From Tetrahymena thermophila SB210 (lineage: Eukaryota > Ciliophora > Oligohymenophorea > Hymenostomatida > Tetrahymenidae): 64,000 bases of DNA. A program made the translations under genes and the position numbers. The stretch covers positions 186,001 to 250,000 of the forward strand of contig NW_002476169.1 in assembly GCF_000189635.1 (NCBI RefSeq). The letters run 5' to 3'. Every line of letters starts with the position of its first letter. The first letter of the stretch is position 1. The notes under the pieces were generated by a model, which was not told the origin of the DNA, did no database searches, and saw nothing but the letters and a program-made list of their open reading frames with translations. Below are positions 7,504 to 41,776 of this stretch, piece after piece.

Positions 7504-10500
7504 TCATTTTTTATATTTTTAGGGTTGAGGTACTTGTAATTTTATCTTTAAGCTAGATTTTTCACTAGCTTTTTTATCTTTGTTTTGCTAGACAAGCTCA
7601 GATAATCTCCTAAATTTACTTTTTTTTTGATTCATATTTTTGTATAGAATTTGAGAATTTTCTAATATTTTTTATTTACAAATTATTTTTTATGTTATGT
7701 AACTTAGATTCTAAGTGGGAAAATAAGTTTTCCAATTATTTTATCTTTCAAAAGCCAAAAAGAATTATAATTCAAATTTCTCTTTTAATTTTTTTTCTTA
7801 ATAGATTTGCATTGCTTACTTATTTTGATATTAAATATCTAATAACTTATTATTTATTTCTTTTTAATCAAATTACTTTTACTAGTTGCTTGTAAATGAT
7901 ATTTATTTACTATTCTACATTACATTTTATACAATTTATGCCATATCTTACTTTAACGTGTTTTTCATTTCCACATTTACTTAGGAAGACTAAAGGATTT
8001 AGTTATTTTAGTTATCCTTAAATTTAATTAAATTACTTTGCTACATATTTGGCTACTGTATTTCTGACTAAATACGAGGGATTTTTTTAATAATTTTTTC
8101 TACTTCATTAACTTCCTCAATTTCATCTGTCTTTCTTTAACCAAAACTCATAATATCCAAAAATTTAGCAGATGATTCACTTTGTTAATTATCATCTGCA
8201 ACATTAGCTATGTTTTTTAACGAGAATGTTAATGTACGTTAAATAGTATTCCTAATCTTTGATTCAATATGTTAATCTTTCATTTGCTATTCTTTTCTTA
8301 GCTACTCTTATTAGGCTTTTATATTATCAACTTTTTGTAATATCTAATTTAACAATTATGATTGATTGGGTCTCTATTTTACTAAGCCGAAAGGCAATAT
8401 ACTTGTTTCTAAATCTCCTAAGTCCTCTTAGTTTATTTCTTCGTTTATTATATTTAAATTATATCCTTAGCCATCAGAATATTAAAGTTGCTATCCGTAT
8501 ATTTTATTTTTAAATGCACTTGTTTAAATACTCAAATTAGCACCTATGCTTTAATTCCCTTCTATATCTTAGTCAATCTAAGTAAACGATGAATAAGAAG
8601 GAATGATATCTTCTTCATTATCACTAACATAAATTTCGTTATCTTGCCATCTTATTGTATTATACTTCTAAAAAAATTCTTTATCTGATTCTAGTTATGA
8701 TGGTAGTATTTTGTATGGATTTTTATTTTTATCAAAATAAATTAATTGTTTCTTTTTTTATTTTTTAATTTACTTGTATGAATTTATTTCTTCTTCTATT
8801 TATTTTTCTTGTTCTTATTTCTTTTCTTTATGCTCATTATTTAATGAAATTTAATAGAATATTCTCTTTTTACTACTAACTTACATCTATTGCTTCTCTT
8901 TTTCGTTACCTAATGTTCTTACTTCACTTTAATTTTACATAATTGACGTTTCAGTTTAAATTTATTGAGGACCTTTTTAATCTATACTAGCATCTATTTT
9001 AAAAGAATTATTAGTCTTTCGAATTGAAACAGGAGATACTATTTCTTCAGGACAAATTTAGTCTGATTCATCACTTTTTTAATTCATTTAACTTTAATTT
9101 TTTTAAACTTTGAATTTCGTAAAGCATTCTGGTAGCTGTTCAGTTTCTTCTACACATTCAAGAGGGCATTCTTATTGTTCTCCTTTTGTACCAGATGCAT
9201 CAGCGATATTAGAAATTTAACTTTTATTAGCATTTTTTTTGCTTTAATTGTTTATCAATTCTGTTAATTTGTTATTTTCTAAATAATTTGCTAAACTTAA
9301 ATTACAATTTTCTAAAATACTATCTTACTCATTAATTTTTGCTTAAAATTCTTAGGTATTTATTCCATTAGCCATAATAAGTAATTACATACGAATGTTT
9401 TTTAATTGATATCTTACTTCTTCGTTTTTAAATAAAGAGTTTTACTTATAATTTCTTCTTTTTTCATAAGGTTCTCTTTTGCTTATAAGCTAGTAAATAC
9501 TTTTACTAATAACATACTCTTTTTTTTTGCCATAGCTTTTATTTATTAAAAAATTTAATTATATTTTATAGATTAAAAAGTGAGAGCAAATAGCAATAGT
9601 TGTTTAATTAATATCAATATTTTAAAAATTAATAATTTAAATTTTTTGTTTTATTAGAAATTTAAGAATTTATTTTTTTATACATTTAAATTTATTATAA
9701 AAAATAAAATATTTACTGGACATAAGGGCAAGAATGAATTTGATGAAAGATTGAATGACAAATGTTACAGGATTATTTTATTGGAATATTTGAAAAAAGA
9801 ATTTTATCTTTAATCATACAAAATTTCTCTTTGTCTTTTGGAAATGATGAAATTACTTCTAAAAAGTCACTCCTAGTTATGTAAACAATATTTACAAAGT
9901 CTTTACATTTAGCATTACAATTTTTAGGTGCTCCAGTAAAAAAATCTTCATATCCAATCCAATTATTTTCCTAATAATTAATTTTAAATTAAAAAATTTT
10001 AAAACAAAAACAAATAGAAGAGCTAAATATTTTTTACCTTATATTCTTAAACAATAGGAACAGGATCGCACTGCGTTAAGTAAAGAACAACTTCTCCTTT
10101 TCTTAAGTAGATAAGCTTCTATTATGTATCACCTTAAGCAAATAGTGTTTCACCAGGCGAATATACTTCTTCCTTGAATTTAGGTATGATACTTTTTAAA
10201 AATTGCTTTGAAAACTTTCTTTTAAAGTATTTATTTGTATCTAAAATATTTCCAAAATATTCATTAAACAAAGACCCTTTTAAATTCTCAGAGACATGCT
10301 TTTTACATTCAAAATAATTAAAAATTATTTTAGATAGAAAATAAATTTACTTAAAGGCATTTATCTATTATAGTAGAGGAGCTTTTTTCAGTTTTCATGT
10401 TGTAGTATAATTGTTCAAGTATTTAATTTTAAACTTATCTGCTAATATTACGCTCAGTCATGTACTAAGTAAGACCTAAAATCTGTCTCCTAATAAAAAA

Positions 10501-12705
10501 AAATTGCTTAAAATGAATATTTTAATATTATTTTTTAGTTTACTTTGTTTATAACTTCTTTCTAACGATATCATTAACAATAGAGCTGATTGTTGAAACG
10601 TTATATGCGAATAGACCTGTTGTTATAAAGGCTATAAAAATTAAAAACATTTTTTCTGTACTAGAAACAGGGTGAATATCTCCATATCCAATTGTGGCTA
10701 CAGTAACTACTATGTAATACAGAGAATTTAGATAGATGATTTTATTAGGCTAATTTTAAAGATTGTTTGAATATATCCAATTATCATCTGATGGCGAATA
10801 TGCTGCTGCTAAAATGAAAACACAAGCCAGAATATGTGAGCTCAAAATTAACTCCATAACGAGCCTTATAACTCTATAAGAATAGTAATATTTTACTTAA
10901 ATTTAAAAAGAAGAAAGCAATCTTTCAAGCTCAAATTTAATTTGGTACAAACGATAAATCAATGTAGGGATACTTTTATCTAGTGAAATTTAAAGAGCAA
11001 GAGCTATAAAATCAAACCAGTAATATCCAAAAAAATAGTTCAAAGCTATTTAGCGTCTATCTACAACCAATTTACCATTTAAGTAAAAAGCCAAGTTAAA
11101 ATTAATGTAAATATCTATTAAGAATAGTATGCTAGGAATCAAGGTAAATATAGTATCAAATTTTTATTCTGGTTATAAACTTTGAGTGAAAGCTACTTGT
11201 ATTGAGATATAAAAACATTGCAATATTGCAGATAATATAATTAGGAATTTGAATAATATAACCAATTTACTATCTTAAAACAATATAAGCCTGCTTATTT
11301 TCTCTTCTTGCTCCTAATCAAAGCTTTAAAACTTGACTATCTTTTTTTTTAACTTTTCAATGATATTTTGATCATCATTTTTTTATTTAAAAAAACTGGC
11401 CTTATCCCCTAAGAATCTAAAGTAGTAAGCAGGGACATTAACAAATCTTTTGATTATATTGTATTTTTCAAATATTTTTATCATTTTTCTAACTAATTTT
11501 ATTTTCTTATACTTTATAAATTTATTTTTCTAGTTTTCTTCACTTAAACTACTCTTTCTAATGTTATTCGATATATTGTCTTCATTACTCTCTTCTTTAA
11601 GAAGGTTTAATTTTATTTACATTAAATTTTTACCCTTAATATCATTCTTCATATTTAAAATATTATGCTAATAGCTAGTTTTCTAATCTTAGAAAAGTTA
11701 TTATTTTGAATTTTGAATAGCTTAGGTCTTTACAGGCTCTTTTATTATATACTCCACCTATTTACATTTCTCTGCATTCACTAGACTTGTTTTTCTAAAT
11801 AATTTTAATATTTATTAAATTTTTTTGTTGCAAATTAAATAAAAGTAGAAATATTACTATTAGACTGATTTTGTAGTACTATTTTTGTCTTAAAATTTAT
11901 CTTCTTAAAGGCTTTCTCTGTTAGAGCCTTTGTTAAATAAAGAGTTTTCTATATATCTAGCTATCCCGCTCTTCTAAAGTGTTTTTTTAGGAATTTCTAT
12001 TTTCTTTATTTCTATGCCATCATACTCAAGAAACTCACTTTCATTAAATTGAGATTATTAGTCTATATTGTTATTGCCCTAATTTTTTTGCACCTAAATT
12101 TTGAATTGCTGAATATCAAATTCAGAGGGTTCATCGTTTTCGTTTTTTGTTTCATCATTTTCAAAATTCATGTTTTTCATCTAAAATTAAGGACTTCCAG
12201 TAGTTAAATCTTCATTTTATATTTAGTCTAAATCAATTAATCTAAAATCTTCATTATTATATTTATTTTTAAAAATTGGTTCCTGTTTATTTTCATTAAT
12301 TTAATCCTAATTATTTTTATGGTTTTCATGATCTTTAAAATTTCCTTTCATAAATATATTAAACATAGAAGCTTCTTGTTAGTGATCTTATTTAGAGGAT
12401 TAGTTTGATATTGAATCTAGTTTTTAAATCTTTTGTTTATCTCCATATTCTAATCCTATATTTTTAATTGAAGTATCTATATAATTTTATTTTTTGCTTT
12501 ATTTAGATTTTGAACTCGTTTATTCATGTGATCCCAGCTATTCTTATGATTCTTTATTGGTAGAAGTCTTTTAACTACCCTATTTTTGGTATTTATGATC
12601 AACAGAGAAAATTTCTTAAACCCCTTCTCTCAGATCCAGCTCATCTTCTTAATTTTTATTATTAGCAGTAAGAGGAATCTCTGTATCTAATCTGTCAGTA
12701 TCCAT
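7504..12705 (-). CDS. Potassium channel with CNBD, zinc knuckle and long tail (member A)
   Basis: A 1615-residue protein from five exons; introns 10490-10543, 10299-10350, 9971-10037 and 9536-9716 (54, 52, 67, 181 nt). Spliced length is divisible by three with a single TGA. Residues 1-480 are polar and Gln/Asn-rich. S1 starts near 482 (LVILFKFLIILSAILQC), S5 is hydrophobic, and the pore filter near residue 672 is ATIGYGDI, the potassium signature. After S6 comes a C-linker and a cyclic-nucleotide-binding-like fold with GETLFAQGD. This is followed by the CCHC motif CNICHSIFHQIHSC, then a Lys/Arg segment and an acidic, Gln-rich tail of about 650 residues. The last intron joins the knuckle exon to the tail exon (CPY-VHYGKKKE), so the open frame at 7504-9390 is this gene's tail, not a separate gene. 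The tail lacks the clear terminal Y-F-P-x-x-N motif of the other members. It is presumed to act in the surface or ciliary membrane. Confidence 0.85.
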
Positions 12706-13274
12706 TAATAATACTAATTTATAAATTTATAATTTATTTGAATTATTCCTACCTTTTCGATATTAATATCAAAAATAAATATAAATTAAATTTTTGTTAT
12801 CTTCTACTAATTAATATTATAAATATTCAAATGAGTTATTCATTTCATTTCATCTCATATATTATTAAAAATAAAAGTACATACAAAATTTATTCTTTTT
12901 ATATTTTGAATGTTAATTCAATATTTTAATAGTATTTATTTTTTCTTTTAAAATGCAGACAGATTTAATCGTAATTAATTATTCATCTGATCAAGTTCAG
13001 ACTTCATATAGATTACATATAAAAACACTCAAAAAAACCTAAAATATATATATTCAAAGCAAATGAAAATTGTTGTTAATAAGTGATTTTCCCCATATAC
13101 CGCACTCCATTTATTTATTCCCTTAATAATATATTTATTAAAAATAACTTAACTTATTTTTAAAGCAAATAAAAGCATAACAGAAAAAAATAAAAATTAT
13201 ATGCTTTATATTATGTATTCTTTATGCATATTTTTGTCTTATTTATATAAAACTATTTATCCCTTTTAGAGATT
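12706..13274. other. Intergenic, promoter side of channel A
   Basis: About 570 bases with only short AT-rich frames. It lies upstream of channel A and downstream of the next minus-strand gene, so it should hold a promoter and a 3' untranslated region. No gene is supported. Confidence 0.55.
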
Positions 13275-16123
13275 TCATAACCAAGGATGGGGCTCTTCAT
13301 CATTTACTTTCTCTTTTTAATAAAATTTAAATTCATGTTTTTTGATTTCGTTTTATGTTGCATTATCAATTTTTAATCTCTTATGGCTTTCAGTATTTTT
13401 TTAAGTTTCTTTTAGTATTTTTGTGGCAGCCTATTCTAATAGCTGCTTTGATGAAGGCTTCTTATCTATTACAGCAGAGTCTATACAAATTATTTTAAGT
13501 AAAAAAAAAATAATATTTCTATATATATGAATTAAGTAATATATTTATTTACCTTTCTTAGACTAATCCATAGTATCTTTTATTTACTACAAAGACTTCT
13601 AAAATCTTGAATTAATTTTGTTTAATTTTTCTGATTTTTCTTTAAGCATTAATGATCTTTTTTATACACTTCCTCCTTTAATTCTAATTATTAAAAATAA
13701 ATACAACAGCTTACAAATAAAATAGAGTTTATTTAATTACATGTCGATTTTCCTTTTTGTTTTATCTTCCAATTTTTTAATGTCTTCTTTCACTTTATCT
13801 CTGCATTTATCTCTTGTTTCCTCATCAACATCCTTTACAAATTTTTCAGGATCAAATTTCTAATTATCATCCAAATAAGCTCTATGATTACCTAACAGTA
13901 CTTCTTTTTACCATAGCTACTTTTTATCTTCTCCTACATCAAAAGTTTCACTCTATGCTTAGGATTTAGTTTTACTTCTAATACTTCCTTACTATTTTTC
14001 TAATTTACTTTCTGATTATTTTTCCACTTGTCCGTTTTCTTCTCCTTAACTATTTTCTTATTCTTATTTTTCTAAATCTTTTAAAATATTTTATGAATTT
14101 TAATTTTGATTATCTTAACTATCTTCATCAGCATTTTCAAGTCTTTCGATTAATTTGTTATTCTAAAATTAAACACCTATTTCTTAGATTTAACCCTATT
14201 TGCTTTTTTATGCTTTTTTGATTGGCTTTATTTCCAAAGAATCATATAAGTTGTTATCATCTTTTTCTTCATATTCCTCTTAATATTTTTTAGCTTAACT
14301 ATCAAATTCTTCAAACAGTTCATCATCACCTAAATCAATCTCATTCATAAGGCTTTCCATAAACTATATAATTATATATATATTTTATAATTTTTTTTTA
14401 TTAAAGATGAAAAATCTACTTGAGCTCTCTATGATTTTAGTTAAGTATCTTTAACTTTAGACACTTTTGAATTAACTTTTTCAACTTTTTCTTATGTCAA
14501 AAAAGTTGTCATTTTAACTTATTGTTATTTTTGAATTTTTGGTTTTGGACTTGCTGCAGCTTAATCTCCTAATTGAATTTCTTCCATACCAAACAAGTCA
14601 TTTTCTTGGTTTTAATTATCTTCTTGGAGACTTTAATCTCCTTTTTCATCATTAAAATTTTATAAGTCATCCATTGAATTTTGCTAATTTTCTTGCTAAT
14701 CCTATTCGATTTCTTGTTAATTCTATGAGCCTTCTTAAAAACGGTCTTCTTAAAGATTCTATTCTTCTTAATTATTATCATTTTCATTCCCTTTTTATTC
14801 GTTTTTATGTTATTCATCGTATAGCTTCCCTTAATCATACTCCATTTCATCTAATTATCTTTCTAAGGATAGATCCAAGCTTCTATTTTATAATTTTTCT
14901 CTTATTTCATTCATTTCGTCCATGTGCTCATCTGCAAATTCCAAAATTTGAGGATAACCTTTTTTAATCTTTAATAAAAAAATAATATTTTATTTACTAA
15001 AAATTAAGAAAGTTATTTATTCACTTTATTAAACATATTATCTACTTTAGAAGAAACTTTCATCATCTTTCTCATATCTAAAAAAGAATTTATTTCTCTT
15101 TTTCTATGAACTCCAAATGCCTTTATAATAATAATAAATTAGTTACATTTAATATTCTTAAGAAGAGATCTATTTAAAATATAAGCGAACCTCTTTACCA
15201 GTCTTCGGTTATATCTATTTACTATTCTTGGCTAATAGTTTATTGATTTCCTATTAAATCTTTACAGATTCTCTTTGCTCTTATAATTTTTTATTTGTAA
15301 ATATGCTGTTCCCTGTGCTTTTTTGATTTTTTTCTGCATTGTTTTAATTTTTTACAGGTTCTTGTAGAGCTAAAATTTCATTTTAGATTGCTTTAATATC
15401 TTCATTATCTTAAATAGAGGATATTCCTTCGTTTTTATCTTCTTTATAAAACACAATTTTCTATTTAATCTTTTATCCTTCAATATGAGCTTAGCCCAGT
15501 AAATCATCTGGAATTCTACCTTTTTAAGGTGATTGTGGTAATTCTTCTATCAAAGGTATTTTTTCCCATCCATTGCTTACTTTATAGTATTCGCCAATTT
15601 TGATGTGAGGAAATCTTGCATTAAAAAAAAGTAAATTTTTATTTCTATCTTTTGCTTCTTATTCTGTCTAATATTTTCTAAATTCATCATATTTTCTTAG
15701 CTCTTCTTCTATTTTTTTCTTTTATTTATTATTTAGTGGCTTAATTTCATCCTTATTTAGCTGTTATTTTGGATCAGAAAATATATTTTTTGAAGTTTCA
15801 TTCATGAAGTTATTTTGCAAAGTCTTTTTTCCAGTTTATATACTACTGTTAAGCTTTGCGGATAAAGGCCTATCTTTAGAGTTAATCGAGTTTGGATTCC
15901 ATTGTTGAACATTTAATGTTTATTTTAAATTATTTTCAAATTCATTATAATTATCCCTTTCTTTTGATTTAGATTGGTTTTTAGTATAGATCTTCTCATA
16001 TGGTAATATTTTTTGATCCAAGCAATCTTAATTGGCTTACAATTTTCTTTTTTCAGATGGGATCCATTCCCAAAAAGTTTCAACCTCCCAAGGTTCACTT
16101 TTTTTAGCATTTTTTATTATCAT
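13275..16123 (-). CDS. Unrecognised acidic Gln/Glu-rich coiled protein
   Basis: An 863-residue model with introns 15104-15146, 14969-14997, 14364-14419, 13684-13740 and 13481-13552 (43, 29, 56, 57, 72 nt); the spliced frame closes at one TGA. The N-terminal part has aromatic-rich conserved-looking stretches (EPWEVETFWEWIPSEKRK; FPHIKIGEYYKVSNGWEKIP). The middle is Glu/Gln/Asp-rich and probably helical or disordered, and the C-terminus ends in EEPHPWL-like sequence. I recognise no family. The two upstream introns are unusually short and together total 72 nt; if neither is real the frame still stays open with a different stretch of about 60 residues, so that part is uncertain. It is divergent from the thioredoxin-like gene and may share a promoter region with it. 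Confidence 0.65.
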
Positions 16124-19311: not shown

Positions 19312-19548
19312 AAAACTATCTAAACTGAAATAAATATATTAAAAAAAATTAATTGATCATATATTTGTATTGTCAGAAATTAATTAAATAGAACAGAATT
19401 TATTCTAAATTAAAGATTATAATTAACTTGATATTTTATATACCTCATATCATTATTAGAATATTAATATTCTAATATTAAAAAGGAGATTAGAGCCTAA
19501 ATAATTATAATTAATTTTTTAATAATATTTATTTATGTATTGAAAAAA

Positions 19549-20849: not shown

Positions 20850-23800
20850 TCAATCAACCTTTTTTATATTAAGATTATGAATAACTCTAGAAAGGTTATG
20901 TTCAGGGTAGAATATCCTAAATTCTTTAAAGCTATCAAATTCATTCTCGAAAGTATTCATGTTATTTTAGTAATTACATATATTTTACTATTCTTATACT
21001 ACTATCTTTTTATTAGAAGGATAAACTTTACTTTCATAAGCATTTGTGTTGTACTAAATTAATAGACTATTCCTTTTTTCTATTTCATGTTTGTTTTTCA
21101 TTGAAATTAATTGAGTACTATCAATTATTCCTGAATTATCAGATTTTCTAATAGCTCTTCCTCCTTATAACATCATGACTTAAGAACTGGATAAAGAATT
21201 TTACTTATTAAAAACTAAATTTTTACTAGATTAAGGCTAATAAACTTAGATATCTTTTTAACTACTTCCTAATCTAAAAAAGCTTTAAAGAATAGTAGAA
21301 GACATAGGAATAGATTCATTAACAGATCTATGCATAATGCTTTTCTAGCTTTACTGGTAATCTTCTGCTAAAACCTCGGATATTCTGTTTAAAATTTATT
21401 TTTATTATTTTTTTTACTATTCATGAAATAAGTGTATATTTGTAAAAAAATTTAGAATAAATAAATGAAAATTATCAATTTTGCTGTTTTAGATTTTATA
21501 AATATGATAGCAAGTAATTATTATTGAAAGTACACATAGTATGTTTGGTATTATTTAAAAATATATTTCTTATTGCTTTTAGTTAATTTAAATAAAAGTT
21601 ATACTTGTTAAAATTAAATTCGGTAGATATTTTTAGACAAGTTTTCTTATAAAACAATTTTTGATTTAATTTTTTAATATAGAAAAAACGAATGAGATAT
21701 TTATTTATTACCTTCTTTGGTTGTCTCTACTTTCTTTAAATGAGTTTCTATTCTATGCCATATATAATCTAGAATCTTTAGAAACTTTTAATAAATAACA
21801 AATTTAAAATTTCAAATAATTAGTTGTAGAAATTACTTTTCTACTACTTTTTCATGTTTTCGACAATCGATGGAGGTTACTCGTTATCAGTCTAATTAAA
21901 AAAAGATTGCTTATCAACTGATGTAAAGGATTCTTAATTTTATTGAGAAACATTCGATCTATTTGTCTTATTAGTTTTGTTTGTATGTAGTGTTTTATTT
22001 GTTTTGTGAGTTTTAGTTGTTTTTACATCTGGACTTAGTATTGAAGATTTTTATACATTTATATGAGTCTTATCATCAAATTCTTCGTCCTCAATTTCGT
22101 CACCGTTTTCATAATCAATTAAAACTTAATTTTAAAAAATCTTGAAAGCTGGTATCCTTTACAAAAATTATTTATCACTCCACTCAATTACATTTTTTAC
22201 ATCTTCATATATGTCTAATATTGCTTTATCTTCTTATTATTCATTTAATATTAAATCCATTCTTTTTTATTTAGCTACTTTTTTAGTTTGCTAGAGTTTT
22301 AACAGCGTTTAGTACTGTTTAGATTTATAATTTAAAATAAACTTATAATTAAATAAAAATTTCCTAATTATTTACTCTTTTTTTTCTTTATTTCAAATAT
22401 TGATTTCTATTTTAACTCTTTACAAAATTATGTCTTCTTATAATATAGTCACTAGAATAATTAATTGTTATTAGGGGACATTCACTCGTTTAATGCTACA
22501 GACTATTACAGCATTAGCAAGTTTGAAGCTTTTACAAAAATGAAAATTGGTACTTTTCGTTACTTTATTCGAAAATCATTTGGTATTGTTCCTATTTGAT
22601 AATACAATATTCAATTTTATTCCTTAAAATTAATTTTTGATAAATCATTACGAAATCTTCTTAAAACTATCTCAGCAGCATCAAAAAATCTTCTTTTTCA
22701 ATGTAAGATAATATAACAAAATTTGAGCTTTTTAAAGTAACCTTTGACGGTTTTTATTGTAAAAACTCTGTTAGCCCTATGATTGAACCTTCCTTTAATT
22801 TATAAAAAATTGCTTACATTATTTTATTGTTTTTGAAATCTAGAATTTATTACTTCATAAATATCTATTTCAAAGTCTTATGTTGACTCAAAAACTGATT
22901 TTATTTATCCTTTTTAAATTAGATGCAATCTATTAGTAAGTTCTCCGTTTTTTTGAATAACTTAATCAGGTAATAATCTAGTAATAAATTAATTACATGA
23001 ATAAAATAAAAAATAAAAAATAAACATTACAAAACTTCTTTCATTTTGCAAGAAAGCTATGTTAAAAGCTCCTTAGTAAATAATTTGTTTAAAATTTGAT
23101 TTTTTAGAAAGTATTGCAAGTATATTTCACTGTTTAGTTTTGCTTATATTTTATTATTAAACTATCTAGTTATCTTCTCTCCTTAAAAGTACTTATAATT
23201 TTCATTTTATACTTTTAATTATTTTAAAATATTTTATTGAAGCTACTAAGATATCTTATTCTTTTTTAAATAAGATTTGACAACCATTTTAGTTCTCCTT
23301 TATTTATAAAATTAAAGATTATTAATTAAACTATTCAAGTATTTATTTAATTTAATCATATTTTTTTTAGTTAATATATAAAAAATTGAAATATTACTAA
23401 TAGTCTTTATTTTCAGTGAACTGATTCAAGGCATACTTGATCAAAAATAGAAAAATTTAAAATTAGATAAATAAGTTGAATAGCGTATTAAATATAACAT
23501 AAATCTTTTCAGAATTAGAGACAGGAATAATATCACCATATCCTATAGTTAGAAGAGTAGTCCAAGAAAAATAAAAACTGTAGATATATAAAGTATTTTT
23601 GCTCTGCTCAAATTCTAAGTTTACATTCTTAATCCAGCTGTCTTATTCAATCATTTAAGCTCCTATATAATAAAATATACAAGTAGAGATGTGAGTATAT
23701 ATTAACAATAAACATGCGATGCTAATAAGGTCAAAGATAAATACAAGTTAACTTCTATCAAATAGAATAATATCTTTGATATATTGATTTATTTATTTAA

Positions 23801-26126: not shown

Positions 26127-29100
26127 TCATATAATCACTTTCTAAAAAAACTTTGTTTTATTGCTTAAAGATTAAGGAGATTTTTCTATACTTGCTTCTT
26201 AAGTCTTTTTTTTAATCCCAATATTTTTTTAAAGAAAACTTTATTTTTTAATTCTAAAGTACCTAAGCTTCGATGTTTATTTTTACTTATAGGCTTGAAG
26301 GACTCTTTCTAGGTTAAAATTTGGAAAATATAATTTAAAATCTTTTTATCTATCAAATAAATTTTCAAACGGATTCATTTAAGATACACTATCTAAGATT
26401 TAATTTATGCTTCTATTAAATAGCTATTATGAAGCTGTTAAACTTAATTTTTTATTTAGATTACTTAAATTGTCAATATTTTGGCATATTAATTTGAAAA
26501 AATCAGGATTATTTAAGAATTGTTCAGCTAGTTTATTATTTTAATTATAACCCCTTCTAATAGACTTATTAAAAGGAACTCTATTGCTCATTAAGCTAGA
26601 AGAACCATGTGTATTGTTATTATGAATTGAAGATGAATCATTATCTATCCCACCTTATTCTTAATTTTCTGTTATTTCTCGATTACTTTAAGAGTAGTTT
26701 TATTTTTTTAAAATATCTTAATTTAACTAATCTAAATTATTATTTATTTTTTAATACGACTTATTGCTACTTCCAAATAAATCTTGATCTATTACGCTAT
26801 TTATTAAAAGGATATTTATCAATTCACTTCAAAAAAGCAAATAAATAAAAAAATAAAATTACTCATCAAAAGAAATTCGTTTTTTACTTATCAGCTCTGG
26901 ATACATTATTTAAAGAGAATTAATATTTGGTTACTTGTCTTAAAATAAAATAAAAAAATTATTTAAGAAACAAACGGTATAAAGAATTACCTTATTCATA
27001 AACAGATGATAATAATACCTTAGATTATAGATCTTCTGTTTTTTTTTTATAAATATCTAAGTAACTTGAAAGAATTTAGCTTCCATTTTAATTCTATTTA
27101 TTTTAAGTTACAGATAAACTCTCTTGTTAAATGCTAGTTTATTCATTTTAGAGAAAGGTGTTTGTTACTATTTCTTCGTCATCATCTTAATTTTCTATCA
27201 AGAAATTACTTTTTAAATTGGTTTAAGATTCTTTTACCAAGTTAATTTTTGGAATATTTTATAAAAAAAATTTATCATCTAATTAGTTTAAAGTCTATCT
27301 ATCTAATTTTATATTATTTAATGTTATACTTTCTTATTAATTTTCTTATAGAGCATGATCATATCGATACATTTTTAGAGATTGTTTCACAATTTAAGCT
27401 TTTTAAAAAGTTGAATACTTTTCATTATTAATAAAAAATTAAATTTTTAAAAATAATAAATTTAAATTCTTTTTTACCTTATCTTTTTTTCTTTTGATTT
27501 CAGATCGACATTAAAATGAAGAAAATTAATGTCTTTTTATTATTATGTTTCTATTTGAGATTATAGAGATAGATGGACAATTATGTATCTCATGATTAAA
27601 TTATTTACAGCACTCACATTTCTGCAAAGTGAATTAATTATTTTTGATATTTTATAACACTTAATCTCTTGTTAGGCAGAATTTTTCCTAATAAAATTTA
27701 GATATGAGTGAATATAAGTTTGATTAGACTTTATTTACATGATCGTTAGGAAATTGGTGTAATAAATCAATAAAATCTTAATATTCAAAAAATATTAGCC
27801 TAGATAAAGTTTAAGCTTTTAAAGTATATTCGTAATCTGTAGAGCATAAAAAATACTTGAGTCCAATAATACTCCCAACCTTGATAATTTAATAAAGTTA
27901 TTTTTTGTACCTTAGGTAAAATTTTTTATTTATTTACTTCTAAAGTATTGAAGGATTTACTTTATTGAGACTCAAAAACCTGATTTATTTACCCCTTATA
28001 AAGAAAATATAGCTTTTTGGAATAAGATCCTACTTTCTAAAGTATTTCGTCAGGATATAAACTTAATTTATTTGAAAAGAAATAAAATATATAAGCTTAT
28101 TTTAATTGTTTACTTAAGCTCCTTCATTTTTAGACAAAGCTTTTCTAAAAATGGTTTTGAAAATATGCTAGTAAGTAATTTATTATTAAAAAGAATCTAT
28201 CCATACTGATCTATTTTTATTTCATCTTTAAGTTAATTATTAAGTTTTTAAAGAACATATTCACCTTAACTAAAACTTTCATGAGCTGATATACTTTCTA
28301 ATTATCTAATAGCTTTTATTCTCAACTACTTTGAGACATTTCTTTGCAACAAATAATTTAATACTTCCCTTTATTATATTCTATTTAAATAAAATATTTG
28401 AATTATTTAGGAAATATTTATATCTTAGAGAAACTTAATTCTCTTTTTAAATTCTAAGCTTAGTAAAAAAATGCTTTTATAAAGTCTCTATTAAAATAAG
28501 TTAAGTATTTTTAAAACTTATGATAAAATCCAATTTTTTCATTTTTTTTGAGTTTAAATGTACTATATTTATAAATTAGCAACGAATAAAAATTTTAATA
28601 TTCCATTTATTTTCTAAAATAAGTATTCTATTTTAAATTTTATCAAAAATAAGAAAGTAATACATTTTTAATATAAACTTTATCCCTTAGATACTTAAGG
28701 AGGGGGTAGAGGGATTATCGATATGGGGCTCTTAGAAAAAAAGAAAAAATTATAGAATGAAAAAGTTATCTTAAAATCATAAAGTTAAATAAAATATCAC
28801 CCTCTGCACCTACAGTAGTCTACATTTTAATTTCACGATTTGTTATATTTTATTCAATTTTACTAAAATAGCTTAATTATAGTGTTTACTATAATATTCA
28901 CTATAATAAGTGGTATAAAAATTTGATGCAAAATATAAAATAAAATGATTACTTAAAAGATTTATGTTTCAGTTAAGATTATTTTAGAATTTCTCCAATT
29001 GTATTAATAGAGTATCCAAAAACAGCACAAGTAATTGTAATCATACCTGAAACGTATATCCTTTCTAAAGTTGTAACTGGAGTAATATCTCCATAACCAA

Positions 29101-30477
29101 TGGTGTTAATTGTAATTATAGAGAAATAGAATGAAGTAATATAATTATGCTGCCAATTGTTATTTATAATATTTTATTGCATTAACCAGCTATAGTCATC
29201 TTCACTCCTTCCCAAAAAATAGAAGCCACAAGCAAATAAATGAGCTATCAACATTAAAAATAAAATTAATTTTGTTAATTCATAAATAGTTTAGCTATTT
29301 TCTGATCTATTTATTTTAAAAATTATGTTATCAATTATTGAAAATGTGTATCTTACTTTATTAAGACTATGGACTTAATATTCTTTTCAAGAATAATAAT
29401 TTTTGGTATTCTTAAAAGGAATAGGCATTTGATTAAAAATATTTGAGAAAATTATTAGATAAAAAGAGCAGAGGTAGTTATTAAATCAATTGTAAAAGTC
29501 TACTTCAAGTAATTTTTTGCAATGGTTTTTTTATCTAAACAAATTACTCCATTGACGTAAATAGTTGAATTAAAACTACAGATTATTGAAAAAATAAATA
29601 ATGATAATGAAAATTCATTTACGATAAAAGAAAATATTTGTTTAGCATCTAATTAAAAAGCTATAGAGAGAGGAACCCAAATAACTTATAATAAATTCAT
29701 CAATAACTCTATGCATCTTAGTATAATCATAACTTTAGAATCTGATTAAAATGTTTTAATTTAACTAAAAATCTTAGGTAACTTTAAGAATCTATATTTA
29801 TTTTTTAAATTTAATCTTACAAAAGACAGATCATTAATAACATCAACAAACCTTTCTTCTATTGTGTTTATGTTTCTTATTTTAATCTAAATTTTTTAAT
29901 TCATTTAGTGAAATTAAAGTAAAAATAGTAGACATTAAAGAAAAATAATAAAGATTACATAAAATTTTAGCATTTTAACGAATTTTACTATAAAATAAAG
30001 TCTCTTTAAAAAGTTATTTTTTAGTGGGTATATAGTTCTTAAATTTTAACTAAAGAATTGTTAGTTTTAAGTTGATTCTGAATTGAATTTTGTTCTCACT
30101 TAATAATTACTAGGATTTATATCATCATTTTTCAAAAATTTATCAAATTATGATTATTTTTTCAAATAATTATCTTTCTTTTCATACAAACATTCATCTT
30201 TGCTTTAACTTTCTAACATGGTATGTTGATAATATATTTATGATTCTTGGCTTTTACTTAAGTTATTTTCATTCAATACATTTAGATATTAATTTTAACC
30301 TGTTATGCAATTCAAAGCATCTGTTGTATTGTAAAGTAGAATTTTAGATTCATTCAAATTAAATACTGGAGAAACATTTTCATTTTTGTCATTTCTTAGG
30401 CTTTAGGCTTATTAACATGTGCTTTCACCTTCCAATTCCTATAGACTTATATTTTTTTAGGGAGCTCCTTCTTCCAT
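26127..30477 (-). CDS. Potassium channel with CNBD-like fold and zinc knuckle (member C)
   Basis: A 1105-residue protein from ten exons; introns 29887-29958, 29307-29356, 28381-28952, 28062-28113, 27880-27937, 27688-27738, 27418-27477, 26939-26990 and 26797-26862. The spliced frame closes at one TGA. N-terminus starts MEEGAPQKNI. S5 includes LIAHLFACGFYFLG, the filter near residue 420 is INTIGYGDIT, and S6 reads GYSINTIGEIL. The C-linker is LNYLLQRNVSKQL, and the CNBD-like fold lacks the usual Glu and Arg of the phosphate cassette (SIIGLKYFL, then TLKAQT). The CCHC motif CECCKQFNHEIHNC is near residue 669; the tail has DDKFFLQNIPKI and ends with DFKLYFPNFNLERVL. S4 has few positive charges, so strong voltage gating is doubtful. 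Its splice sites match those of D and E. Confidence 0.9.
28381..28952 (-). other. Oversized intron of channel C with GC-richer islands
   Basis: This 572-nt intron sits directly after the S6 exon, at the position where the paralogs have introns of 100 (B), 65 (D) and 48 nt (E). Around 28693-28735 and 28799-28815 it holds locally GC-richer, purine- or pyrimidine-biased blocks such as AGGAGGGGGTAGAGGG, rare in introns of this genome. There is also an inverted repeat TTATAGTG / CACTATAA at about 28876-28914. It could be an embedded non-coding RNA, a remnant insertion or an expanded intron; sequence alone does not decide. Confidence 0.5.
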
Positions 30478-31416
30478 GTTAATTATAAACTATTAACGCC
30501 TTATCATAGCACCTTTTATTAGATCGTTACTTTCTTAAAATAGCATAAAAATTACTCTTCCAAATATATAAATCGAATTACCAAAATAGCTTAAAAAATA
30601 TTAATTATTATGATTATTTCAAAAACCCTAAACCCTCTAATGGATAACTATATTTCTTTAGCAAAGCCTTTAAGCTTATATAAGTTTATTAATTTATTAT
30701 TGCTCTTTAATACCTTTTTTACTTAGTAAATAAATTATTTTTATTTTTTAACAAAGTTATCTTTAATTAATTAGAAGTTTAATTAAAGACTGCTTACTTA
30801 ATCTCCACCTAAATCAAACAAACATTATTATCAAAATATTAAGTAAATTTTTTCACTTTTAATTTAAAAATTTTTAGTACCATAAAAGCATCAACATAAA
30901 AATCAATTAAATATGAGTTAGTAAAATAAAAGTTTTCAATTAATTAAATTAATTAGGTAAAAATATGATTCAAACAAATTTTAATTAATTAATTATACTT
31001 TACTATCAAAATAAATTAATGCATTCTTGAAAACATTTTACTCAAAAATGTTCAACATTCCATTTATTCCAACCTCAAATTTTAATATGTTATTCTTGAT
31101 ATAAAATTTTAGTGAATGATTAAGATGACAATTTTATTTGTTTTTAAAACAAATTAAAAAATTTAAATAACAATAAAAAAATTAAATAATATAAACATTT
31201 ATGTTAAATAGTTTCATTGACTAATAAATTTCAATTTTTATATACGAAAAAAAAAAAACATTAATTTATTTTTAAATTAAAGTTAGACTTTTAATCAATT
31301 TCACACCATAATTTAAAATTGAAATAATCAGTCATAAAAAAAAATAATTAATATTTCTCCAAAAATATAATTTTAAAATGTTAAATATATTTTATTGAGA
31401 CAAGTAAATAAATAAA
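30478..31416. other. Intergenic between channels C and D
   Basis: About 940 bases. It includes a short block near 30620-30640 with two tandem CCCTAAA-like units (ACCCTAAACCCT), probably chance. Otherwise AT-rich, presumably the promoter of C and the 3' untranslated region of D. Confidence 0.5.
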
Positions 31417-34400
31417 TCATTAAACATTGCTTGTTCTTAAAAATTTAGTATTATTTTTTGAAAATGTTGTTCCCACTGTAGATTTTTTAGCTTTTTTTCT
31501 TTAAGAGCAAGTGTCATCAAATATAAAATCAAATCTTTTTTTAGGGATTTTAATGCGCAAAAGCTAAAATCTTTTTTTGATAACCTAAAGAACTTTTTCT
31601 AAGTTAAAAAGTGGGAAATAAATTTTGTAATCCTTTTATTTATCAAATTAATTTTCAAAAGGATTCATGTTTTCTAGAGTTTAATTATCTCTTGTATACT
31701 GGTCGAAAGTTTTTGTAAGAAAAGTTGTTTAGCCTACAGTACCTGGAATGAATGTTCCTCCTTGACTAACTTGCATTAAATTAAAGAGAGTTTAATTAAT
31801 TTATTAGTTTGCAGCATTATTTATTTGATGAATTTGAGGTAAATTTATTGAGCCTCTTGGTTTTATGTTAGGGCTACTACTTAAGTTATATAATAAATTA
31901 GTAAAGCTTTGCTATGGATTATTAACTCCTTATAATATTTACTATTATTGAGCTATTTGAGTTAGCTATTAAAGTTGTTATTATTAAAGAATGATTTATT
32001 ATTATATTGGCTAAATTAAGTGCTATGATCCCATTTATTGCTATGGCTAATGTTGGGGTTTTTCTAATTATGCTTAATGAGATTTCCTTCTCATCTTTTT
32101 ATTAGTGTAATGCACATAATTTGACGTCTAGGAAGGTATGTAACCTGTATTTATTGATGGAGTAAACCCACTCATTTAACTTCCAATGTTATTCATTAGA
32201 GTCGAAATACCTTATGGTTATAGATCCTGTTTACTTGTAGGGATATTTTTAGAACTCATTGGTATCTCACCCGCAGAGCCATAAGATTCTTGGTAATCAA
32301 CATTTCTATTCTGTTTCTTGTTTTTTTTGTTGGCATTCATATTCATTTCAATTGAGTCTTACATATTTTGTCTAAACAGAAAAAAAGACAGATAGATAGA
32401 TAGATAGATTTAAATAATAATAGAAATTACTCATCGATATTTTATAGAGTTACCCTTCTTTTGCTATCATTCATGAATTATATTGTAGAATTTCTTTAAG
32501 CTTTTTAAAATAAAAAAATAAAAATTTTCAAATAAAAAGATTTCAATCTGATTTTATTCCAAATATAACTAAAGTAGAAAAAATAGAAAACCAATTTAGC
32601 ATCACATTAAATTAATTTTACGCTTTTCTTTATAGTTTTCAAGAGACGATTCTACCACATTTTCGTCTTTTAATTACTTTTAAATAGATATTTCGTCTGC
32701 TTTTTTCAAAAACTAATCTAAGTTAGATTGTACTGCTCTATTAGCCGAGCTTGTTAAACCATCCTAATTTGTTTCAAATTCTTCTTCTTCTTCCTCCGAA
32801 TCAAACTCATCCTCTTCGTAAATTAGGTCATTGCTTTCTTCTTAAATTTTTCTCTTTATCTCTTACATATTAAATAATTTAATTTGTGGTATTTTTTTTA
32901 AAAAAATTTTATCATCCCAATTGCAAATAAACTTTCTATCTAGTTGCAAAATACTTTAGTCAATATCAGTTACTTAGTTTTTGACTACATATTCATATCT
33001 AAACTCTTTTATATGCATTTTATTAAAGAAGCTGTTACACAAATTATTTTGCTATGTAAAAGACAAAATATATTATATCCTTTTTAAAAAAATAAATTTT
33101 TACTTTTTTTTATTTTCTATTAAAGATCCCTCTTTACTAAATAGAAGAAAACGAATATCTCTTAACAATAAGATCTCTATTTGGAATCACCGATATACAT
33201 GGACAATTGTAAGTTAAATGAGTATACTACTTACAACACTTGCATTATTCTTATGAAAAAATATTATTACTAATATTTTGCAGTATAATATCACGAACCA
33301 AAAAAAATTTTTCCTTTATAAAAAAAGTAAAATTATTTCAAAATTTTATATTCATAGCACTTAACTTAACGTACATTATCATCTGGAAAATGGCTTAGAA
33401 GTTCTACAAAATCATCATACTCGCAGTATATAAGACTAGCTACATTCATACTTTTTAAAGTGTACTGATACTACTTCTAACAAAAAAAATTATTGAGTCC
33501 AACTATATTTCCAACCTAATTTTATCAGATGTAATATTAAAAGAAATAAAAATAATAAAATTCCAAAAACTACATTTAACTCTTCGATGATTGCATCCTT
33601 TTCTGATTAAAAGACTAAGTTTATAGATCCTTTATATATGAAATAAAGTCTTGTTGGAGAGGAACCCTTTTTCTGAAGTATTTCATTTGGATATAAACTA
33701 TTTTGTAAATAGACGAATCAATTTAAAGGCATAGAATAAAATGTAAATTTAAACTTGATGTCTTTCATGAGTAAACTGAGCTTCATCAAAAACTATTTTG
33801 AAAATATTTTTTTGAATTATTTATTGTTTATAATAATTTTTCCAAAGTATTCTGTTTTAACCTCCTCCCTTAAGGAATCATTGAGCTTGTCCAAGACATA
33901 TTTTCCTTAATTGAAAGTTTCTTAACTGATGATGTACTCAAGTTATCTAATAACTTTGATAGTAAGCTGTTTGGATACTTATCTCTGATTCAAATAGTTT
34001 AAGATATGCTTTTATTAAACTCTTGATAAAATATTTTTGTTTAGATATATAAATTATTTTAAAATAATATGCTTAAAATAAATTACTTAAATGATTCATA
34101 GTTTTGTTATTATTATCTGATAATTTCACCAATTGTGTTAATCGAATAACCAAAAACTCCACAACTAAAGATAACCATTATTAAAACAAATATCCTTTCA
34201 CTCGTATTAACAGGAACTATATCTCCATATCCAACAGTATTCATAGTAATTATAGCAAAATAAAGGCATGTTACATATAACTATTCTATTGTATATTCAG
34301 ATATACCCTTCTAAACTATCCAATTGTGGTTTTGATCTCCAGAATTGCCAACATAGTAAAACCCACAAGCACAGAAATGAGCGACAAATAATACAAAAAT

Positions 34401-36012
34401 AATTAATTTTATAAGTTCATAGCAAGTTAAATATTTTTGTTTTCTTTATAATGAAAAAAATTTTTATTGTTAATTATAAATATTAAATAATGTTAAATTT
34501 ATTTAAAATTTTGATAATAAATTTGTAAAGCTAATAAATAACTTTCGTAATTAATTTAATCTAAGAAGAAAAATATTCAAAAATATTTTAATAATATTTT
34601 TTTTTTTTGGGAATTGCATAAAAAACTTAAGATTACTTTGTAATTAGTGATGACTTCACATCATTTTCTAAGTTAAGAATTTAAGGAAATCTCAGAATTA
34701 TTAAATAGATTAAAATCTTTTACTCTTACTGATCTTAAAGTATTAATGCTAGTGTAGTTATGACATCAATTGTGAATGAACCTTTTAAATACTTCATAGC
34801 TATTATTTTTCTACTTTAAACTATGTTTCCATCAATATAAACTGTTGTGTTAAATCTTACAATAATAGAAAAAACAAAAATCACAATAGAAGCCTAAACT
34901 AACAAAAATTCTAAAAAAATGCTAGGTTGCATTTAAAAACTTAACTGCAAAGGAAACCAAAATATTTATAGTAATATTACCAAAAGTTCAAGAATCTAAA
35001 ATAAAATCATAAATATGCTATCCTTTTCAAAAATCTTAAAATTTATTATAAAACTTGGTAATAATTGTCTTCCAATAAATTTTGTTTTTTTGGTAATATT
35101 TTATTATACAAAAGAAACATCATTGATTAACTTAAAATAGTCAAGTTGCAAGTTAGCTATATTTCTTACTGATGCCTTTTAATTATTAATTAAAAAATTA
35201 TGAGATTAAGCAAATAAGTAGAATTAATCAAATTCGTAATTTAATGAATTCTTCAAATAATTGATTTTTTCAATATTAATTAAGTATGGTTTTATATCAA
35301 AATAAATTACACTAAACTTCATTTTTTTTATAAAGCGGATAACATAGTAGAGTCTTTTCAAAAAATTATTCTTGGATATATTTTACTAAATTTGATTAAA
35401 GTGTATTTTTCGACCAGTATTTTACTGATTGTTGATTTACATAGCACCATTACTATTTTGTTTGATTGTTTTAAAATCAAAGTCTGTAACTTGGTTTGGC
35501 TTTAAGCTATTCTTCCTATTGATTTCTATATCTCCATCTATTTGAGATAGTCCTTTTCTAATAATTGCTGATTTATAAATTGAAATTTCTGCCTAATTAT
35601 TCTCATTAAAATTATCAAAAATGTTAGAATCAGCAATATCATTGCCACTATGATCTTTTTTAGAATTACTAAATTTTTAATGCGTGCTAGATCCATCAGC
35701 GTTTAGATTATAATCTTTCGAAATATTTTAATAAATAAGATTTTATTCGAAATATTGTTTTTAAATCACATCATGATTTGAAGGAAACTAAATTTCCTAT
35801 TCGCTTTCTAACTTCTTTTTAATTTAGTTTAAGGATCCATGATTTTTATTTTAATGATATCTATCATTCATAAAAACAGATCTTTTTTTAAGATCAGAGT
35901 CAGAGCAAAAATCCTATAAGTATGTCATATCTTCATCTTTCTTTATCTAAGAGCTAAGCTCTAATCTATTAAATTTTTGTTCAGTAAATGATTATTAAAG
36001 CTCCTATTTCAT
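31417..36012 (-). CDS. Potassium channel with CNBD-like fold, zinc knuckle and poly-Gln tail (member D)
   Basis: A 1264-residue protein from ten exons; introns 35176-35310, 34444-34636, 34022-34086, 33698-33754, 33516-33573, 33314-33374, 33052-33103, 32501-32621 and 32372-32430. The spliced frame closes at one TGA. S5 has VAHFCACGFYYVG, the filter near residue 486 is MNTVGYGDIV, S6 is GYSINTIGEII, and the C-linker is LNYLNQRQVSKQL. The CNBD-like fold again lacks the cassette Glu/Arg (NIVGLNNFF; TLKSMN). The CCHC motif CKCCKQYTHLTYNC is near residue 731. The tail has DDKIFLKKIPQIKLF, an acidic run of seven Glu, a long Gln-rich stretch (several runs of three to five Gln, 31950-32050) and the terminal motif DYKIYFPLFNLEKVL. 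Intron 32372-32430 contains a GATA microsatellite. Confidence 0.9.
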
Positions 36013-36964
36013 ATTTATAATTATATAATTTCTTACTTAATTATTTATAATGAAATATAATATTTTCCAATTAATAAGTAGGAATGAATTATAAAATTGA
36101 ATTCAATTTTCCTTCACAATTATAAATATAAAAAATAATACTATTTAATTTATCTAAAAATGTTAAACTAAAATTTAATCAAATACATGTTTTTAAGCAT
36201 TCTAATTTAATCTATATTTCATAAATACTTTCTTTTAACATAAAAAGTTAACTTCATAGTAAGGATTTGAAATTTAACTATTTTAATTTCCTATTAATAA
36301 TCTATTTAAATTGTTAATAATTTTATTAAAAGATTCCTTTAAATACTTAGTTAAATATTTTTAATAAATTAATTACTTCTATTATGACTTAGATAAAAAA
36401 ATAATAAAATAATTTTATCAATTTAAAAAAAAAAAAATTATAGTAATTATTTTTATTGTTTAATAAAAAAAATTAAAAAGCTTAAAAAAATTATAATAAT
36501 AAAATTAAAATGCATCACTAATTAATTCTTCAATAATTAAAAACCTTCTTTTGTAAAAAATATAATTTAAAATCTACTGCTAAACAAATTTGTTGTTAAT
36601 TTTCTATTTAACTAAAGATTAATAAAATGAAATAAAACACCTAGATTTAATTTTAAAATATTGCACTTAAATGAATTAGATTATCATTATATAAATAATT
36701 TTTTAAATTAGACATAAAAGCTTTCTTTTACTCTTTTTAGAATTAAATTATTTATTTTTCATAATAATAATTCATTTATATATTATGTAATATTTTTAAT
36801 TCATTTATTTGAATTGAAGTCTAAATCATTTAAAGACCGTAAAATATAATGCACAGAAATTTAATTTTAAGTTTATTATTAATTAATTATGAGCAATAAT
36901 AGTAAATAAGAGGTATATAAGTACATAAACAATTTTTTGAAATTATATTTGCTTAATCATAGTT
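36013..36964. other. Intergenic between channels D and E
   Basis: About 950 AT-rich bases, presumably the promoter of D and the 3' untranslated region of E. No gene or structured RNA is supported. Confidence 0.55.
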
Positions 36965-39900
36965 TCAAGAAATATTACTTAAGTGGTTATTATTTCTAAA
37001 AGTAGTAGAAGTATTTTTGCTAAATTATCTAAATTTATTTGATTATCTCCTTTTAAATTATTATTATTTTTATTTCTATTGGTTAGAGTAAGCTTTTTTA
37101 AAACTAGAAATAACTAAATTGTAGTTATTATGAGGAAAATATATTTTATATTCTTTCATTTTATCAAAATAATTAACAAAAACATCTAAAGTTTCGATGT
37201 CATCTTCTTAGTTTATTTGATTTTAAACATTTATTTTTCTTTCTAAATTAGATATTTCCTAAATCATAATTCTATTATTTCCTTTTGGTGAATTGACTTT
37301 ATTAATACTTTACTGATATTTAACTAATTATTATGAGCTCTAAATTGGTAATTTTAACTCTTAGTTTAATTGAGAGATGCCAAAATCAACATTTTTCTGC
37401 TTATTTTATAATTCTTCATCTACATTTTAATTCTATTTAAGCTTTTTTTACTCTTAATCAATATTATTTTTTATTAATGGGCTTTAATCATAATCCTTTT
37501 CCCTTATTTAAAATAATGTTATTTTTAAATGAATATATTTTTTTACTTACGTTTCTTGTGAGGTTGTTACATCTTTGTTGTTTTATTTTATATTTTCATA
37601 ATATGACAAAAAGCGTGAGGAAATTCTAATTTTATCTGAAAAAAATAAAGTTAAAATCTATATTTTATAAGGAACTATTTACTATTAAATGTCTCAATTT
37701 AGCTTTCTTCTTACTTTGATTGCTATTTATATTTTTAGTTTTGTATCGACATAGACTATGAATTTACGATTATAGATTACTCTACAGAAGTTAAACTATT
37801 TTAATTATTCCTTTCTCTAAATGTGTTATCTTCTTCTTAATCTATACCACTAAGTTTAATTTAATCTTCATAGCATACATTCTTAATAATCGGAACTCTT
37901 TAATAAAAATAATAATCTTCACATTCATACAGAGACTAAATATCTCCATACTAAAAAATTTATTCAATATCTTCTTTTTGTTCTTAAAGAATTTTAAAAA
38001 TTCTAAATTCTTTTAGAGATGTTTTAAATTCGTTTAGATGTTAGAGAGTCTTATTCTAATTATATAAAAAATTGTTTTAATTATATAAAATACTTTAGAC
38101 GCTAAATATTTATAAAAATTGACTTTTTACATGGGTAGTTTTTCTTCTATATGAATGATCTCTTGTTTAAACAAAAGGAAATATATATCTTTTGATAATG
38201 ACATCTTTTTATGGCACAAAAGATAGACATGAACACTTGTAAGTTTGGTGTGAAAATTAATTACAACAACTACATCTTTATTCTTAACAAGCATCATTTG
38301 AAATATCTTACAGTAAAATATCTTTTAGCTTGTAAAAAGTCTCCTATTAAAAAAATTAATTTTATTAAGTAAAAATTACTTGAGTAATTTCAAAAAAATT
38401 TAATTTGTACATGATCTTCCTTAAAAGAAGAGAGTAGGTCTTTAAATTAATTATACTCGCAGTAAACAACTGTACAGATATTTGCACTTTTAAATGTGTT
38501 ATCAGACTATTTTTACAATATAAATTATCTCAAGTTTATTAAACTTCCTGCCTATTTATAAATAAATTAATTAATTTTATATTTAAAGCAATTTTCTATA
38601 ATTGTAAAAATTAATTTATTAACTTTTAAGGCATAGATTGTGTGATCATTTAAATCTCTTTCAAATACTTGATTTATCTGTCCTCTATAAATAAAGAAAA
38701 TTTTATTGCTTACTTCTCCTTTTTTTATGACAACTTCATTAGGATAAAGCCTTACATTAAATATTTTAAAATAATTAATTAGTCATTTTTCTTTTCATCT
38801 AAAATGATAATTTTACTAAACGTCTTTCATAATTAGAGACATCTTATTCAAAAACTAAGTAGAGAAAAGCTTAGAAAACAATTTATTTGATTTAATAATT
38901 TTTCCATAAAACTAAGTCTTTACTTCATTTTGAAGTGGTTCATTTAGCTTTTATAAAGCATATTCGCCTCTCTAATATTTCTCATGCTTGTTTATGTACT
39001 CAAGCTATTTTATTACTTTAAGCATTAATTATTTACTAATTTGTCTTTTCTGAAGATAATTTAATACATCTTGCTACTAAATCCTAAATAAAAAAATTCA
39101 GCATAAAGAATATTGACTCAATAATATTTACAAGAAAGACTCTTATTCTTGAAAATTAGATCTAATTATTTCTCCAATAGCATTAATAGAATATGCAAAT
39201 AATCCAGAACCAATAAATGTTATACTCATAACATAAATTTTTTCTTATGGACTAATAGGAGTTATGTCTCCATACCCAATTGTAATCATAGTTATTACAG
39301 AGAAATATATGCTATTTAAATATTAAATTGTCCATTCTTTATTTTATAAATTATTTTTATTGATCCAATTTTCTTCCCCTAAGCCTGTGGTTCCTACATA
39401 AAAAAATCCACAAGCTATAAAATGTGCTACTAAAAGAAGTAGTCCTATTAATTTGATAAGTTCATACTCAGCTTTAAACATTTTCTGTCTTCATTTATAA
39501 TTAATAATAATTAATTAATTTAAAAAATCTTTTAATTTTGTATTGTTAAAAAAAATTAATATTTCTTTAAATTTTAGAAAATTAATTCATTATTAATTAA
39601 TTAATTTAAATTTTTATGTTTTAAAGATTAAATTTAAAAATCATATACAAAAATATTTATTTTCTCTAAATAATGTAAAGAATAAAATAGCAAATAAACA
39701 ATACATTTTATTTTATTAGGTGGGTTGAAAAATAAATATGCAAGAGTTTTAAAGAAAAAGAAATATTATTTTACCTCATGATCAAAGCTGTCTTAATTTT
39801 TTTTTCTATTGATGGCAGCTAGTAAAGTCTCAAAATAACAAGTGGTAAAACTGTTGAGTCATTGATATAACTGGATATTATTAAAATGAATGTAGTAGAG

Positions 39901-41705: not shown

Positions 41706-41776
41706 GCACCGATGGTTTAGTGGTAGAATAGAGCGTTGCCATCGCTTTGACCCGGGTTCGATTCCCGGTCGGTGCA
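41706..41776 (+). tRNA. tRNA-Gly (anticodon GCC)
   Basis: A 71-nt cloverleaf. The acceptor stem pairs GCACCGA with TCGGTGC, discriminator A. The D arm carries GGTTTAGTGGTAGAA, overlapping the A box of the internal Pol III promoter. The anticodon stem GAGCG/CGCTT encloses the loop TTGCCAT, giving anticodon GCC. The T arm CCCGGGTTCGATTCCCGG includes the B box GGTTCGATTCC. No intron, and CCA is not encoded, as usual in eukaryotes. It reads GGC and GGT codons. Confidence 0.97.

Follow-up and report, generated by a model that had tools for sequence, protein, structure and literature searches.

A predicted CCHC zinc-knuckle module C-terminal to the cyclic-nucleotide-binding domain of potassium channels in Tetrahymena thermophila

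Five potassium channel genes lie on a 64-kb stretch of the Tetrahymena thermophila SB210 genome (contig NW_002476169.1, positions 186,001 to 250,000), which is called the window here, and each encodes one C-x2-C-x4-H-x4-C motif. The presence of this motif, its exact spacing, its position, its linkage to channel pores and cyclic-nucleotide-binding domains (CNBDs), and selection on its four Cys and His residues are established by the comparisons below. The pattern of conservation suggests that the motif is probably a true CCHC zinc knuckle. It would form the core of a C-terminal module of about 75 residues after the CNBD and hold one constitutive structural Zn2+ per subunit.

Results

Each channel gene in the window has one copy of the motif. 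Six-frame translation of the window with the ciliate code (table 6) gives exactly five matches, all on the minus strand; 2000 residue-block shuffles give 0.023 on average and never more than 2. With 0.023 expected, a chance origin of the five motifs is rejected. An initial annotation of the window had reported the five motifs in the five channels, and its coordinates agree within 3 bases with those found by motif scan and C-terminal alignment:

9728..9769, minus strand: channel 1 CCHC knuckle, CNICHSIFHQIHSC
22478..22519, minus strand: channel 2 CCHC knuckle, CQCCNSLQHQTSEC
27577..27618, minus strand: channel 3 CCHC knuckle, CECCKQFNHEIHNC
33203..33244, minus strand: channel 4 CCHC knuckle, CKCCKQYTHLTYNC
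38233..38274, minus strand: channel 5 CCHC knuckle, CSCCNQFSHQTYKC

The only invariant columns in an alignment of the five C-terminal stretches are the four ligands, namely the three Cys and the His of the motif, which are contained in a 14-residue segment of a single chain. The module consists of a short helix, a linker, the knuckle, and a basic tail, often with Q-x-R. In most cases Pro and x-x-His follow the knuckle. The motif had been described as directly following the CNBD. It does occupy the same place C-terminal to the domain in each channel, but about 27-39 residues by Pfam borders intervene, made up of a D-x-E-x-F-x-x-I-K-D-like stretch, probably the C-helix, and the linker.

The four ligands are jointly conserved in the modules read across the genome. 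Genome searches were made on the 101-Mb assembly that contains the window and cover a single species, T. thermophila. Four module protein queries, merged, give at least 247 candidate module loci outside the window (expectation value, E, up to 0.5 or 1), of which 83 were read at the sequence level, and the exact motif with its spacing is kept in all 83. The first 20 loci were picked from matches to the Pfam family zf-CCHC (PF00098) and are a biased sample; the next 60 come from sampling in contig order. The motif is present in 72 of 72 module matches read in the contig-order sample (of 77 on contigs C3-C112). Because these queries contained the ligands, a profile with masked ligand columns was also built. 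It finds 94 distinct modules in the sequence read, and the motif accompanies every one of them (94/94). For 92 it is in the same exon, and for two (L051 and L016) it is a few hundred bases further on in another frame, which is read as the next exon. The masked profile recovers four of the five window modules and misses channel 2. A masked-ligand BLAST query against the whole genome gives 83 matches, none of them outside the earlier set.

The rest of the module is less strictly conserved. An ungapped alignment of 92 knuckles combines the 83 read loci, the window's five, and four picked for having the motif, so that the ligand invariance of this set is in part built in; the counts free of such choice come from the 83 read loci and the 94 masked-profile modules. 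The next-best columns reach 79% (Pro after the last Cys and Phe in the helix), and the helix residues D, E, and F before the knuckle are found at 76-79%. Downstream of the knuckle there are positions rich in Arg and Lys. The knuckle and this basic tail might together form a face that binds a protein or lipid and sends or anchors the channel, for example to cilia or the cortex, with zinc structural for the face. Fixed ligands combined with wide variation of the other knuckle residues among paralogues would be expected if each channel has its own partner, and the basic positions are also consistent with docking. However, the conserved short helix points to packing on the channel itself, and docking appears unlikely.

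The divergence of the modules suggests that the four ligands are under purifying selection. Mean identity is 17% at the ten non-ligand knuckle positions and 22% over the whole module (85 sequences). The ligand codons (TGT/TGC and CAT/CAC) show 15 of the 16 possible synonymous combinations in 88 knuckles. Since the ligands are invariant, their neighbors divergent, and their codons synonymously variable, selection to keep these residues is the likely cause. Tandem copies are common, with 144 of the 252 modules lying within 10 kb of another on the same strand, and the Cys/His pattern might be thought a functionless leftover of recent duplication. That origin is largely refuted by the low identities and by the synonymous change at the ligand codons, and it is hardly credible. 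The initial annotation had held that the ligands stay fixed while the residues around them vary. Comparison of many channels within the T. thermophila genome bears this out, with the ligands found jointly in both of these choice-free counts, as would be expected of a zinc-knuckle-type module under strong selection at four positions.

Similarity searches with relatives point to a zinc knuckle, and a short structural model leans the same way at non-significant E values. In the genome 61 of 93 zf-CCHC matches fall within modules, as do 44 of the 71 over the Pfam cut-off. When three relatives were compared with zf-CCHC by hmmscan, two were over the cut-off (1.7e-6 and 3.1e-4) and one was below it (0.012). 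A PDB sequence search with the module of one relative gives 22 sequences with E of 1 or less. These are 7w5z chain C plus mostly Gag, nucleocapsid, AIR2, terminal uridylyltransferase, and LIN28 names, and there is no CNG, HCN, or KCNH channel among the 22. An AlphaFold model of a 30-residue core, made from the five window sequences, has a predicted local distance difference test score (pLDDT) of 82 in one knuckle block and 86 in the other, and of 63 beyond them. All five PDB matches of this model in Foldseek are in LIN28-containing entries, over 17-19 columns with a root-mean-square deviation of 0.5-1.2 and a non-significant E of 5.4-10.

Several results weigh against a true zinc knuckle with a structural role. 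The window's five knuckles have no zf-CCHC match even to E 1, and a profile of the five finds no knuckle in the PDB; its four matches are three PKA regulatory subunits and a cytochrome chain. The Foldseek E values of the 30-residue model are, taken alone, at chance level. A 73-residue AlphaFold model is of poor quality, with a pLDDT that averages 57 and reaches about 70 in the knuckle, and a PDB structure search with it gives no match. Some columns of the CNBD are almost as constant as the ligands (Phe 80/82, Gly 77/81, Phe 77/81), so the ligands are the strictest positions, yet not unique in their conservation. A structural role at the cytoplasmic ring is, moreover, something that we infer.

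The module is not specially nucleic-acid-like. Nucleic-acid-binding knuckles have an aromatic residue after the first Cys, Gly at C+4, and Gly before the His. This set is complete in none of the 92 knuckles (0/92), and the aromatic residue is present in none of the window's five, so nucleic-acid binding as the main role is rejected. The initial annotation had likened the spacing to that of nucleic-acid or metal-binding knuckles; the spacing is exactly that of zf-CCHC, while the full residue set of nucleic-acid-binding knuckles is absent. A nucleocapsid- or CNBP-like knuckle that binds nucleic acid would account for the spacing, for the relatives that score as zf-CCHC, and for the fact that the only structural neighbors of the model are in RNA-bound LIN28 entries. 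Given the missing residues and the tail of a membrane channel as an unlikely location, such a function is very improbable.

The knuckle seems to be required irrespective of whether the neighboring domain can bind a cyclic nucleotide. A Glu and an Arg of the CNBD hold the cyclic phosphate. Each is kept in 52 of 81 aligned sequences (a cruder pattern count gives 45 and 41 of 71), and both are absent from window channels 1-4, with channel 5 outside that alignment. Loss of these residues in many members, while the knuckle is kept in every module read, argues against coupling of the knuckle to cyclic nucleotides. A structural zinc site that is independent of cyclic nucleotides is therefore favored on the sequence evidence. 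Some CNBDs of the family keep a near-textbook cassette, FGE...R-x-A-S-A-R-S.

Zinc could also, as the initial annotation had suggested, serve to sense metal or redox state, if its release or the oxidation of a knuckle cysteine altered channel opening. Three Cys and one His beside the gating domain would suit such a sensor, and in four of the window's five channels the motif contains an additional Cys (C-x-C-C). In the family, however, the additional Cys is uncommon (10% at that position, including the window), and absolute conservation suits a structural site equally well. A sensor is quite improbable.

The module is found with many pores and CNBDs throughout the genome. The scored candidates were 150 of 540 matches for PF00027, 150 of 343 for PF07885, and 150 of 306 for PF00520, and 150 of 276, 150 of 189, and 150 of 224 for three module queries. 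Of the 150 scored Ion_trans_2 matches (four of them window genes), 82 have a same-strand module no more than 2.5 kb downstream and none has one upstream; the other 68 have no downstream module match. Among the 150 CNBD matches listed, 93 have an adjacent module match and 57 do not. Thirteen of these 57 were read. Four carry the motif, five resemble kinase or tandem-CNBD proteins by eye, and four (three on C50 and one on C31) appear channel-like by eye with no motif in the stretch read. The one on C31 (C31:678251), again judged by eye, is a CNBD channel with a TVGFGD filter. The CNBD genes that have the motif and were missed by BLAST are L075 (C94:263830), L025 (C10:91785), L071 (C89:12302), and L016 (C198:329928). 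Because these four escaped the BLAST queries, the BLAST count understates the size of the family. Overall, one group of channels within the genome seems to carry the knuckle. The module had been presented as a feature of the five window channels; all five have it, but it is not peculiar to them, with some 250 candidate loci genome-wide. Large tandem arrays of channel genes are also seen, for example on C22, C33, C112, C113, C145, C174, and C238.

All five window genes have a potassium channel pore. The selectivity filter T-[IV]-GYGD and a Pfam match to Ion_trans or Ion_trans_2 are found in each of them, and the pore signatures are as follows:

10669..10704, minus strand: channel 1 pore signature, TVATIGYGDIHP (PF07885, E 4.6e-14)
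23523..23558, minus strand: channel 2 pore signature, TLLTIGYGDIIP (PF00520, E 2.3e-11)
29078..29113, minus strand: channel 3 pore signature, TINTIGYGDITP (PF07885, E 1.1e-14)
34212..34247, minus strand: channel 4 pore signature, TMNTVGYGDIVP (PF07885, E 1.4e-12)
39257..39292, minus strand: channel 5 pore signature, TMITIGYGDITP (PF07885, E 1.6e-16)

A CNBD fold had been assigned to all five channels. On joined pieces PF00027 is found after the pore above the Pfam cut-off in four of them (1, 3, 4, and 5), whereas the match in channel 2 is below the cut-off and covers part of the model. The domains and C-terminal exons are:

10029..10199, minus strand: channel 1 exon with the first half of the CNBD; splice end approximate
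9719..9961, minus strand: channel 1 exon with the second half of the CNBD, short helix, and knuckle; upstream splice end approximate (PF00027 E 6.9e-12 on joined pieces)
22652..22930, minus strand: divergent CNBD region of channel 2 (PF00027 match below the cut-off, E 0.0021)
22370..22621, minus strand: channel 2 C-terminal module, made up of the helix, in which 9 residues appear to be inserted, the knuckle, and the basic tail (alignment)
27739..28066, minus strand: channel 3 CNBD in two exons, intron 27880-27937 (PF00027 E 2.8e-9, joined exons)
27469..27687, minus strand: channel 3 C-terminal exon, encoding the helix, the knuckle, and the basic tail (alignment); GT...AG intron immediately upstream
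33375..33702, minus strand: channel 4 CNBD in two exons, intron 33516-33573 (PF00027 E 8.8e-11, joined exons)
33095..33313, minus strand: channel 4 C-terminal exon, encoding the helix, the knuckle, and the basic tail (alignment)
38411..38755, minus strand: channel 5 CNBD in two exons, intron 38552-38623 (PF00027 E 2.9e-7, joined exons)
38125..38343, minus strand: channel 5 C-terminal exon, encoding the helix, the knuckle, and the basic tail (alignment)

Channels 3, 4, and 5 have clean GT...AG introns, and one exon in each holds the short helix, the knuckle, and the basic tail. The exon join of channel 1 is approximate. In channel 2 the reading frame is open across the join point, so an intron need not be assumed there. 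Beyond the 5' end of channel 5 there are two adjacent, near-identical tRNA-Gly (gcc) genes on the plus strand (41706-41776 and 41849-41919).

Discussion

A zinc knuckle in each subunit would help to build the cytoplasmic part of the channel. Each subunit would fold one Zn2+ into its knuckle as a constitutive structural element. The knuckle would end the short C-helix and fix the basic tail, and as an outcome the cytoplasmic ring would fold, pack against its neighbor, or bind a partner. Assembly of the cytoplasmic tetramer had been suggested as a possible role in the initial annotation. The knuckle would work in this way regardless of cyclic-nucleotide binding by the CNBD.

The module resembles known zinc sites and known channels in part. 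With zf-CCHC proteins such as nucleocapsid, CNBP, LIN28, and AIR2 it shares the exact spacing, the 44 related loci over the Pfam cut-off, and the non-significant alignment of the window-core model with LIN28-containing entries. It differs from them in that it is present as a single copy, is located on a membrane channel after a CNBD, and lacks the aromatic-Gly-Gly set, and the window members are unrecognized by Pfam. Seven consecutive zf-CCHC matches in a CNBP-like arrangement are found elsewhere in the genome (G000:C356:22272-22775). The window channels are similar to the CNBD potassium channels SthK, CNG, HCN, and KCNH in having a GYGD pore, a transmembrane domain, and a cytoplasmic CNBD, and the CNBD of channel 5 has weak matches, at E 0.0013 to PKA regulatory subunits and at E 0.008-0.066 to SthK. 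Unlike those channels, they add a zinc knuckle and a basic tail after the CNBD, and channels 1-4 are without the Glu and Arg. The Kv channels Shaw, Shab, and Shal have a zinc site in the T1 domain that is N-terminal, lies between subunits, and has the pattern HX5CX20CC. As in that site, zinc would be held by Cys and His in a cytoplasmic part of a potassium channel, here as a prediction from sequence. The window ligands, in contrast, are C-terminal and belong to one chain.

One member of the family lies within the deposited sequence of a PDB chain. Residues 772-863 of PDB 7w5z chain C, named 'Cyclic nucleotide-binding domain protein', correspond by eye to locus L013 (C422:131262). According to PMC10227065, 7W5Z is the structure of respiratory complex IV from T. 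thermophila, and this 1471-residue complex IV chain contains a member of the knuckle-channel family. The gene model of the chain may fuse a potassium channel with a mitochondrial subunit.

The full-text literature searched holds no description of this module, with most subscription papers and all bioRxiv preprints outside its coverage. Searches of it that paired zinc knuckles or zinc fingers with channels returned no papers. For T. thermophila 396 voltage-gated-type channel genes have been predicted (PMC3341644), and the word zinc is absent from the main text of that paper as available. A paper on potassium channels of pathogenic protozoa (PMC3283738) mentions neither zinc nor cysteine in its available text. 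Pfam zf-CCHC annotation probably already marks part of these proteins, and the architecture may be visible in databases. The channel and knuckle parts are each of known kinds, and what is new is their combination, its scale, and its strictness.

The distribution of the motif suggests that the module is a major feature of the potassium channels of this organism. Ciliates have exceptionally many channels, and by all signs in the sequences a large share of the potassium channels of T. thermophila end in the Cys-His module. They may, more tentatively, represent a separate class of CNBD channels, expanded in ciliates, with the zinc knuckle as the constant part of the cytoplasmic ring. Folding or contact between subunits would then depend on zinc and set assembly or gating in much of the cell's potassium channel complement, and the binding of cyclic nucleotides would have become optional. 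If a large share of ciliate channels do end in a zinc knuckle, they would carry a module of which we found no description in any CNG, HCN, or KCNH channel, and four residues would provide a single testable handle on assembly or gating in the family. Within these channels the knuckle module outlives the neighboring cyclic-nucleotide site.

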